Positions 28,735 through 32,049 of a stretch of 49,514 nt of DNA are shown here, piece by piece. Positions within the stretch are counted from its first letter, which is position 1. Every line of letters starts with the position of its first letter. Both the position numbers and the translations under genes were made by a program. Origin of the DNA: Flavobacteriales bacterium (GTDB lineage: Bacteria; Bacteroidota; Bacteroidia; Flavobacteriales; BACL11). Where the stretch lies: positions 1-49,514 of the forward strand of contig JABGVU010000010.1 of the NCBI GenBank assembly GCA_018645865.1, read 5' to 3'. Below the pieces are notes generated by a model that did not search any database, was not told the origin of the DNA, and saw only the letters and a list, made by a program, of their open reading frames with translations.

Positions 28735-28741
28735 CACTTTG

Positions 28742-30766
28742 ATGAGATTTCAAAACCCACAACTGCTTTACTTTCTCTTTGCTGTAGCAATTCCAATTCT
28801 CATTCACCTATTTAATTTTCGAAAACACAGAATCATTTACTTTAGCAGTATTCGTTTTTTAAAGGAAATTAAAAAAGATAATAGGAAGAAATCTAAGCTA
28901 AAAAATCTACTTATCCTAATTAGTAGAACACTTGCAATTAGCTGTTTAACACTTGCTTTTGCAAAACCTTACATCCCAATTAACAGTAAAAACAAAAAAA
29001 CAGGCAATGTCTTTATTTATGTAGATAATTCCTTTAGTATGGATGCTGAAAGTATAAATGGTAGGCTACTTTCCATTGCAAAGGAAAAGGCAAGAAGCAT
29101 AAGTAAGACCTACCCTAGTGAAACAAATTTTTGGCTCATAAACAATGATTTTTTAGCACAACATAATAACAGTAATAATGCTAATGAAATTGCTAGCCAA
29201 ATTGATGCCATTAAAACATCAGCCTATAGTAAAAGCTTAAACCAAATTGTAAATAGGCAAGCTAGCTTAAATAATGAAAATGCGCATCTATATATCATCT
29301 CTGATATGCAAATTAATGGATTACAAGTAGAAAAGTTAAACAATTTAGATGCCAATACTTCTCTTTTCTTAATACCGCTTACTGCTAATGAAAACAATAA
29401 TATCAGTATTGACAGTTGCTGGATAAATACACCTGTATTTGATAATAACCAAAAGATATCTGTTTATACTACTATTACTAATCAATCCAAAAATACTTTA
29501 AATGACCAAGCTGTATTTTTGAAAATAAACTCAAAACAAAAATCACAACAATACATTAGCCTAAAAGAAAAAGAAAGTAAAATCATTAGTTTTACTTTTA
29601 TGCCAGAGAACACTGCAGTACAGGAAGGTCTAATACAAATAAATGATCATCCAATATCCTTTGACAATAACTGTTACTTCACTCTTAAAAACACAAATAA
29701 AGTGACTGTTCTTTGCATTAATTCATCTGAGAATAACACAGCAATCACCACCTTGTTTAACAATGACACATCTCTATTCAACTTTAAGAATACTACAGTT
29801 AAAAATATAGATTTTAATGCGTTAAAACAGAAAGATATTATTTTGATTAATGAGGTTCATGAATTTAGTTCTGGTCTTATTAATAGTTTAAATAATTTTA
29901 CTGACAATGGTGGGAGTATCGCTATTTTTCCACCTAAAGATATTGACTTAACAACCTATAACTATACGTTAAAACAACTAGGAATCGCTACATTTTCAGC
30001 ATTAAAAACTCAATCAATTTTACTGGAAAATATAAACATAAAACATCCTATTTACAAACAAGTATTTGAAGGGGAATTAGATAAAATTAACTTTCCAGAA
30101 ATAAAAAAATACTATCCAATAATTTCTCAAACAAATAGTAATAGTATTACTCTTTTGACTCTGGAAAACAATATAGAATTCTTATCTCTATTTGACAAAG
30201 GGAAAGGCTCAATCTATCTTTTTAATAGCCCACTTAACATCAAATTTAATAACTTTAGTAAGCATGCATTATTTGTGCCTACTATATTGAATATAGCAAC
30301 TTCCTCCATCAGAACTGAATCTATTTATAACACAATTAGTCCAGAGGATTATTTTAGTAGTAATGCAATAAAAAATAGAAATGCTATAGTTCATCTTAAA
30401 AATGATAAGATAGATATCATTCCTACTCAAAAAACACATTTAGGAAAGCAAGTGTTTTACACACATAATCAAGTTTATGAAAACGGAATTTACACTGTTG
30501 AAGTTGAGGGAAAAATGATAGATGCAATTGCCTATAACTATACCACAACAGAAAGCGAGAGTAAAATCCTAACAATAAGTGAATTAAAGAAATGGAAAAG
30601 CAGTGTCGATTTAGAAAACATACAGATAATTAGTGGTAATACAAAATCACTAATTGCTACAATAAATGAAACCCAAAAAGCAAAAGAATTATGGAAAATA
30701 GCATTAATTTTTTCACTTCTATTTTTTGCAACTGAAATACTCCTTATTAAATTGATAAAATTATGA
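28742..30766 (+). CDS. BatA-domain / VWA-like membrane protein
   Basis: The 674-residue protein has a BatA N-terminal domain (MRFQNPQLLYFLFAVAIPIL) with two membrane helices. A von Willebrand A-like region follows with DNSFS (Asp95, Ser97, Ser99), the MIDAS core. A long extracytoplasmic region and a final membrane helix near 650-670 complete it. Bacteroidota carry such proteins beside other Bat genes or alone; their role in envelope stress or assembly is unproven. The ATG at 28742 is preferred over a TTG one codon earlier. The stop overlaps the dihydroorotase-like gene by 4 bases. Confidence 0.8.
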   Translation: MRFQNPQLLYFLFAVAIPILIHLFNFRKHRIIYFSSIRFLKEIKKDNRKKSKLKNLLILISRTLAISCLTLAFAKPYIPINSKNKKTGNVFIYVDNSFSMDAESINGRLLSIAKEKARSISKTYPSETNFWLINNDFLAQHNNSNNANEIASQIDAIKTSAYSKSLNQIVNRQASLNNENAHLYIISDMQINGLQVEKLNNLDANTSLFLIPLTANENNNISIDSCWINTPVFDNNQKISVYTTITNQSKNTLNDQAVFLKINSKQKSQQYISLKEKESKIISFTFMPENTAVQEGLIQINDHPISFDNNCYFTLKNTNKVTVLCINSSENNTAITTLFNNDTSLFNFKNTTVKNIDFNALKQKDIILINEVHEFSSGLINSLNNFTDNGGSIAIFPPKDIDLTTYNYTLKQLGIATFSALKTQSILLENINIKHPIYKQVFEGELDKINFPEIKKYYPIISQTNSNSITLLTLENNIEFLSLFDKGKGSIYLFNSPLNIKFNNFSKHALFVPTILNIATSSIRTESIYNTISPEDYFSSNAIKNRNAIVHLKNDKIDIIPTQKTHLGKQVFYTHNQVYENGIYTVEVEGKMIDAIAYNYTTTESESKILTISELKKWKSSVDLENIQIISGNTKSLIATINETQKAKELWKIALIFSLLFFATEILLIKLIKL

Positions 30767-32049
30767 ATTTACTAATTAAGTCGGTTAAAATAATTGACAC
30801 CAATTCAAAGTACCATAATAAGATAGTGGATGTATTTATCAAAAATGGTAAGATTGAGAAAATTGCCAAATCAATTAAGTCCTGCAAGGAATCATTAAAT
30901 AATGGAACAGAAATTGAATATTCAGCCAATAATTTGCACCTATCACCAGGTTGGTTCGATTTACATGCCAATTTTTCTGAACCAGGAAACGAACAAAAAG
31001 AAACTTTAGAAAGTGGTAGTAAAGCAGCTATAAAAGGAGGGTTTACTGGAGTAATGATAATGCCAAACACCACTCCAAGTCTTGATAATAAAGGAATGAT
31101 AAAATTCATTCAAAATGCAACAACAAAAAATATAGTTGACATCCTACCTGCTGGCAATTTAACAAAGAAACAAGAGGGTAACGAATTAGTTGAAATGCAC
31201 GACATGAATAAGGCTGGTTGCCTTGTCTTTACAGATGATAAAAAATCTATCAAAAGAAATGAAATTCTTAAAATTGCCATGCTATATGCTAAGGATTGTA
31301 ATGCCTTAATAATGAACTATCCTAATGAAAATAGCATAGCGAATGACGGCTATATGCATGAAGGAACTATAAGCACTAAACTGGGAATAAAAGGAATTCC
31401 TGCTCTGGCAGAAGAGATGATGGTGAATAGAGATATAAGCATTTGCGAATACACTAATAGTCGTTTTCACCTTTGCTACATAAGTACAAAAGGGAGTGCA
31501 GAGAAAATAAAAAAGGCAAAAACAAAAGGATTAAAGATTACTACAGATGTTGCACTTCACAATCTCTTTTTAACAGATGAAGCTATCAATAACTTTGATA
31601 CTCGCTACAAAGTAATGCCCCCTTTAAGAACTAAAAAAGATAATAAAGCATTAATAAAAGCATTAAAGGAAGGAACTATTGATGTCATAACAACTGACCA
31701 TAGCCCACAAGATGACGAACATAAAAGAGTAGAATTTGATAATGCTGCAGATGGAATAATAGGATTAGAATCAGCATTTGGACTTTTAGGGAAATACTTA
31801 CTCCCTCACCTTGGACTAAGTCAGCTAATTGAAAAAATAGCAATAAATCCAAGAAAGATACTAGGCTTAAATGAAGCTACATTAGTAGAGGGAAATACAG
31901 CAAATATCACTTTGTTTAATCCTGATTTAGAATGGGAGTTCACAAAAGGGGACATAAAATCAAAATCAAACAACACACCATTTGTTGGAGAAAAACTGAA
32001 AGGAAAAGCCCTAGCAATCTTTAATAATGGAAAATTTAAAAAGTGTTAA
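30763..32049 (+). CDS. Dihydroorotase-like protein lacking metal ligands (probable pseudo-enzyme)
   Basis: The 428-residue protein follows the amidohydrolase/dihydroorotase fold (PGWFDLHANFSEPG, KVMPPLR, TTDHSPQ, EFDNAADGIIGLESA) and is usually annotated pyrC. Catalytic dihydroorotases have DxHxHxR; here residues 66-72 read DLHANFS, so the second His and the Arg are replaced. The later His of the IMVHAED-type motif is Asn185 and the His of the CHIS-type motif is Tyr239. Without these it cannot bind the zinc pair normally. Inactive PyrC homologues act as structural partners of aspartate transcarbamylase in some bacteria, which is a possible role here. It is coupled to the BatA-like gene. Confidence 0.85.
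   Translation: MNLLIKSVKIIDTNSKYHNKIVDVFIKNGKIEKIAKSIKSCKESLNNGTEIEYSANNLHLSPGWFDLHANFSEPGNEQKETLESGSKAAIKGGFTGVMIMPNTTPSLDNKGMIKFIQNATTKNIVDILPAGNLTKKQEGNELVEMHDMNKAGCLVFTDDKKSIKRNEILKIAMLYAKDCNALIMNYPNENSIANDGYMHEGTISTKLGIKGIPALAEEMMVNRDISICEYTNSRFHLCYISTKGSAEKIKKAKTKGLKITTDVALHNLFLTDEAINNFDTRYKVMPPLRTKKDNKALIKALKEGTIDVITTDHSPQDDEHKRVEFDNAADGIIGLESAFGLLGKYLLPHLGLSQLIEKIAINPRKILGLNEATLVEGNTANITLFNPDLEWEFTKGDIKSKSNNTPFVGEKLKGKALAIFNNGKFKKC

Follow-up and report, generated by a model that had tools for sequence, protein, structure and literature searches.

Why should a bacterium keep, intact and under constraint, the gene for a pyrimidine enzyme whose metal site is broken? The question is raised by a stretch of 49,514 nucleotides from a Flavobacteriales bacterium of the BACL11 lineage (contig JABGVU010000010.1 of assembly GCA_018645865.1; hereafter the window), which encodes a homologue of dihydroorotase (DHO) that we call the pseudo-dihydroorotase (pDHO). 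We consider it probable that pDHO is a catalytically dead type-I DHO, retained as the structural partner of the aspartate transcarbamoylase (ATCase) PyrB, much like the PyrC-prime proteins of class A2 ATCases. The gene is as follows.

30763..32049, + strand: pDHO gene, an uninterrupted 428-residue reading frame; type-I DHO fold with a broken metal site.

That pDHO is a type-I DHO by descent is evident from profile searches. Residues 22-425 score 360.1 bits against TIGR00857, placing the full-length protein above the curated cut-off of 279.05, and TIGR00857 is the sole model whose cut-off is reached among the best 25 of the 33 NCBIfam models matched. The closest PDB relatives by sequence are the DHOs of B. 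anthracis, Aquifex and S. aureus, all of type I. An AlphaFold2 model built on an alignment of 80 sequences has a mean pLDDT (predicted local distance difference test score) of 92.4 and aligns with 3d6n_A – the DHO chain in a structure of the Aquifex DHO-ATCase complex – at a TM (template modelling) score of 0.93, the range over the B. anthracis and Aquifex enzymes being 0.92-0.93; the first-pass annotation had likewise judged the fold to be well kept.

The metal site tells a different story. In Aquifex DHO zinc is reported to sit on H61, H63 and D153, with D305 adjoining, while a second site comprises H180 and H232 (PMC3880350, in excerpt). With 3d6n as reference (alpha site H61/H63/D153, beta site H180/H232, plus D305), pDHO keeps three of the six ligands that mark a type-I DHO, as H68, D159 and D312, and has lost three, H63, H180 and H232 being replaced by N70, Y186 and Y239; in addition the arginine R65 has become S72.

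30964..30978, + strand: codons 68-72, HANFS; H61 kept as H68, H63 replaced by N70, R65 by S72.
31237..31239, + strand: D159, equivalent of the zinc ligand Asp153, kept.
31318..31320, + strand: Y186, in place of the beta-site ligand His180.
31477..31479, + strand: Y239, in place of the beta-site ligand His232.
31696..31698, + strand: D312, equivalent of Asp305, kept.

The translation confirms the earlier reading of residues 66-72 as DLHANFS, the HxHxR motif appearing as H68-A-N70-F-S72. Two further ligand losses had been placed at Tyr239, correctly, and at Asn185, one residue too early: Asn185 aligns with Asp179 and the true position is Tyr186. The three retained ligands had escaped mention. 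These losses are unlikely to carry equal weight: because Aquifex DHO deprived of H180 and H232 alone is reported still to catalyse its reaction (PMC3880350), the missing H63 and R65 count for more.

Is this an isolated casualty? Comparisons were made with a class sample of 158 genomes (the window's included, all others at least 95% complete) and an order sample of 60 related genomes. A close homologue is found in 50 of the 60. At class level 137 genomes have a pDHO-type match at an E-value of 1e-40 or below, and the sequences of all 137 were scored: none of the six ligands is kept in 25, one in 43, two in 33 and three in 35, that is, at most three in 136 of 137. No sequence has four or five, and one, from genome G109, has all six; without this ligand-complete DHO, 136 class genomes carry pDHO. 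The named homologues agree. Among the 79 usable (the best 80 of 580 loci in the genome_contigs set, leaning to close relatives, less one dropped for ambiguous bases) the alpha-site trio is never kept and histidine never occupies the H63 position. These loci span Flavobacterium, Mucilaginibacter, Tenacibaculum, Polaribacter and one Cryomorphaceae metagenome-assembled genome (MAG; 92% identity). Among the homologues scored at class level, the alpha site of L104 seemed intact (DMHVHFR); residue by residue, D153 proved lost. An earlier set of 76 pDHO rows contained a catalytic PyrC (L150) and two repeats (L174 of L119, L183 of L045), and we rely upon the count of 137 homologues instead.

The ratio of nonsynonymous to synonymous change (dN/dS) between pDHO and close relatives is 0.04-0.14: synonymous change far exceeds amino-acid change, and the gene is under purifying selection. 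Since the protein also scores above the TIGR00857 cut-off, the broken site is not a matter of chance; and given both this ratio and the family-wide loss of ligands, pDHO is a conserved pseudoenzyme rather than a gene in decay. The same two observations support, so far as sequences can, the first-pass statement that the protein is constrained but not as a zinc amidohydrolase.

A conserved pseudoenzyme leaves the question of who performs the reaction. A second DHO of ~443-460 residues is the obvious candidate: the G013 protein scores 737 bits against the equivalog PRK09236 (cut-off 535), and the closest structure is P. gingivalis 2gwn. H63, R65, N95, H180, H232 and D305 are all kept in 40 of 40 rows of this PyrC, although a QVHFR or HVHFR motif served to select the rows, and the conservation of H63 and R65 stems partly from that choice. 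Of the 50 pDHO-carrying relatives 45 have it, three of them as a fragment at a contig end; at class level it occurs in 151 of 158 genomes, and in 133 of the 136 that carry pDHO. An E. coli-type PyrC above cut-off was found in none of the 60 relatives. A second pyrC had been proposed as the thing to look for, and most relatives have it. The window's own MAG, 75% complete, yielded pDHO as its only DHO, which read literally goes against the first-pass claim but at that completeness is uninformative. The presumed catalytic PyrC has peculiarities of its own: the first metal histidine is glutamine in 30 of the 40 rows (DDQVHFR) and histidine in 10, and the D153 equivalent is missing, for example in L048:2938-4266 (- strand). 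The metal site of this PyrC may not be that of a standard type-I DHO.

An alternative that must be taken seriously is that pDHO is still a working dihydroorotase, with a different metal or none. There is a precedent: a Pseudomonas PyrC paralogue (PyrC2), predicted to be Zur-regulated and, like pDHO, without the conserved zinc residues, is described as active (PMC2770081, in excerpt), and because of this report ligand loss alone is no proof of inactivity. The same report weighs against our favoured reading, under which pDHO, unlike PyrC2, would be inactive. The retention of H68, D159 and D312, and the lack of any other DHO in the window's MAG, could also be taken as signs of activity. Yet R65 and N95, which we take to be substrate-binding residues of DHO, are kept in just 36 and 32 of the 137 class homologues, with no single substitute fixed at either place; a separate PyrC with its key residues in order accompanies pDHO almost throughout; and pDHO is absent where the ATCase is of another type (see below), which DHO activity would not predict. 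We thus regard a working enzyme as unlikely, and infer from the sequences that pDHO does not catalyse the DHO reaction.

What then is conserved? The distribution of pDHO points to ATCase. The native PyrB lineage (at least 58% identity to the PyrB of the window's genome, contig-split pieces counted) accompanies pDHO in 135 of its 136 class genomes, G187 being the exception. The regulatory chain PyrI was found in none of the 60 relatives, with positive controls in E. coli and Bacteroides; at class level it exceeds its cut-off in seven of 158 genomes, and none of the seven has pDHO (hypergeometric p 2.7e-7, kinship ignored). An ATCase without PyrI is a class A2 trait, and the pDHO genomes fit it. 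No pDHO is present in G041 and G054, two genomes from the same family, whose PyrB groups with the ATCases of B. subtilis and S. aureus (100/98), scoring 348 bits to that of B. subtilis – from the sequence, it looks like a replacement of the native ATCase. Of the ATCases with a solved structure, that of B. subtilis alone is described as functioning in vivo as a bare catalytic trimer (PMC4581275, in excerpt). In a further five genomes PyrB, PyrC and pDHO are all absent (G092 and G126, where BatA, the product of the gene upstream of pDHO, is kept, and G039, G046 and G051). The two genomes with native PyrB and no pDHO match (G082 and G147) have a strongly degenerate homologue directly after BatA, and one also stands next to BatA in G075. 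The gain and loss of pDHO are tied to one PyrB lineage, and not to the BatA neighbour.

Some side observations belong here. In G041 (L064:8998-14512) the B. subtilis-like pyrB lies beside carA- and carB-like open reading frames (ORFs), named from the starts of their translations. By these searches the five genomes lacking all three genes are possible pyrimidine auxotrophs. Five genomes hold short pDHO-like proteins (family f53; ~374-424 residues where whole, ~24% identity); that these are pDHO orthologs is unsupported, and BatA is not their neighbour in G129 and G206. G206 and G129 (L149, L151) have very diverged DHO-like proteins of 374-402 residues without any DHO ligand motif, and a PyrB of ~49% identity.

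Where pDHO came from is suggested by G109. Here the ligand-complete DHO lies ~70 base pairs behind pyrB on the same strand, as judged by ORF ends (L165:4489-6840), and the usual PRK09236-type PyrC is missing; the pair looks like an active ATCase-DHO. In the DHO tree the pDHOs form a weakly supported group (90/60) that has the Aquifex and G109 enzymes (82/75) as neighbours, and all sampled pDHOs stand with these two and apart from the PyrC paralogue (100/100). The topology fits, and does not prove, descent of pDHO from an active, ATCase-bound DHO. A likely course of events would begin with PyrB in complex with an active DHO, a state that G109 may still suggest; a separate PyrC would then have taken over catalysis, after which the DHO subunit could lose its metal site while its role as scaffold was kept.

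Known systems show how such a scaffold might work. The ATCases of P. putida, P. fluorescens and P. aeruginosa are accompanied by PyrC-prime, described as a 45-kDa inactive DHO homologue, and in P. aeruginosa an ATCase that is monomeric by itself is reported to become an active dodecamer through the inactive protein (PMC7053772, in excerpt). PyrC-prime, too, is said to have lost its zinc residues in the presence of a separate PyrC (PMC2770081), as in most pDHO genomes here. With its 428 residues and lost ligands pDHO has the size and the broken site of a class A2 pseudo-DHO (~45 kDa, zinc ligands lost). The likeness is one of description, and the two ligand losses may be independent. There is also a difference of layout: in Pseudomonas the pseudo-DHO gene usually stands beside pyrB, as pyrBC-prime, whereas the pDHO gene stands behind batA and PyrB is its presumed partner. 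The class A1 dodecamer of Aquifex aeolicus (3d6n, 4bjh) combines ATCase with a DHO that shares the type-I fold of pDHO and is the tree neighbour of the G109 enzyme; the Aquifex DHO, however, is an active enzyme with its six ligands complete, against three in the window protein. In fungal URA2-type CAD-like proteins an inactive DHO domain is reported within the ATCase-containing chain (PMC7053772): there too an inactive DHO is kept with ATCase, as a fused domain rather than a separate chain.

By analogy with P. aeruginosa, pDHO would bind PyrB, probably as six plus six chains, with pDHO dimers holding two PyrB trimers together; binding may be needed for the assembly or activity of PyrB. One part of the model bears mention in this context. 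Its least certain parts are residues 191-210 and 41-50, the former lying after the place of loop A.

31333..31392, + strand: residues 191-210, a low-confidence loop (block pLDDT 63-66) in an otherwise confident model.

Three loops of Aquifex DHO, including loop A, are reported to be disordered until ATCase is bound (PMC3880350).

Several observations weigh against a partnership with PyrB. Contact between the two proteins is presumed from indirect evidence. The genes for pDHO and PyrB are not neighbours: the window's genome has pyrB on another contig (contig 90, after pyrR), and the only nearby pair on one contig seen in the order sample, in G058, is ~2.7 kb apart and on opposite strands. No PyrB was found in seven of the 50 pDHO genomes of the order sample; over both samples, pDHO occurs without a findable PyrB in the near-complete G013 (99%), G019 (94%), G050 (98%) and G187 (95%), as well as in the less complete G005, G015, G031 and G042. 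Conversely, three incomplete MAGs (G003, G030 and G032) contain native PyrB but no pDHO, which is also absent from G112, where PyrB is diverged. All co-occurrence counts ignore kinship. Finally, rate covariation is not specific to PyrB. Across 127 genomes in which all three genes are near full length (contig-split genes excluded, and G131 and G199 also left out despite a near-full-length PyrB), bit scores correlate to the same degree for every pair among pDHO, PyrB and PyrC (Spearman 0.61-0.63; partial 0.36-0.41), the partial coefficient being 0.36 for pDHO with PyrB and 0.41 for pDHO with PyrC; we have dropped covariation as proof of interaction.

The genomic neighbourhood of pDHO could suggest a different partner.

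28739..30766, + strand: BatA-like protein bearing the double-transmembrane domain TIGR02226 at its N-terminus; stop codon and pDHO start codon overlap (ATGA).

In 68 of 82 pDHO rows, a tally in which two copies are repeats and the G109 gene appears twice, the gene immediately upstream, in the same orientation, is a BatA-like ORF, often with stop and start overlapping, and it might be argued that pDHO serves this membrane protein and not pyrimidine synthesis. Among 38 genomes chosen for contrast, and not at random, BatA occurs without pDHO in six (G177, G202, G092, G126, G212 and G109, where the only homologue is the ligand-complete DHO by pyrB) and pDHO without BatA in five (G045, G058, G047, G093 and G165); G141, with BatA and no pDHO match, was not counted, its BatA ending ~300 bases before the contig end, where the next gene could be cut off. 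Because the two genes are decoupled both ways, their linkage is more suggestive of a common transcript than of a common function, and we think service to BatA as improbable as a working enzyme. A bolder idea is that the ATCase of most Bacteroidia is in two parts and that its non-catalytic half, encoded in the BatA operon, physically ties pyrimidine synthesis, at its first committed step, to a complex of the envelope. This is a long shot; we know of no such coupling in Pseudomonas or Aquifex.

It is slightly less probable still that pDHO has acquired a new role – as a regulator or ligand sensor, for instance – that has nothing to do with binding PyrB. The extreme divergence of pDHO in some lineages would suit such a role, as would the genomes with pDHO and no PyrB, and PyrB binding is itself a deduction; a new role does not, however, account for the coupling of pDHO to one PyrB lineage and its exclusion from PyrI genomes. 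Decay of the gene, which the lost ligands and the degenerate homologues by BatA in three genomes might suggest, is very improbable given the intact frames and the presence of pDHO in 136 of 158 class genomes, and for the window's genus the dN/dS values already refute it.

The principle of an inactive DHO as partner of ATCase is not new, but its Bacteroidota branch is apparently undescribed: in the open-licence PMC literature, judged mostly by titles and the starts of abstracts, we recognised no paper on a pseudo-DHO from Bacteroidota, itself a weak negative. Should pDHO be the structural partner of PyrB, then a protein whose NCBIfam matches are all to DHO-like enzyme models would, in Flavobacterium, Mucilaginibacter, Tenacibaculum and Polaribacter, not be the dihydroorotase but probably one half of the ATCase; any metabolic model listing it as PyrC would be in error, and the ATCase of such bacteria may prove inactive when expressed by itself. 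The G109 layout is a possible living intermediate in the passage from catalytic subunit to scaffold, and the exchange of PyrB partners within one class – PyrI, pDHO or none – opens the evolution of ATCase quaternary structure to direct tests.

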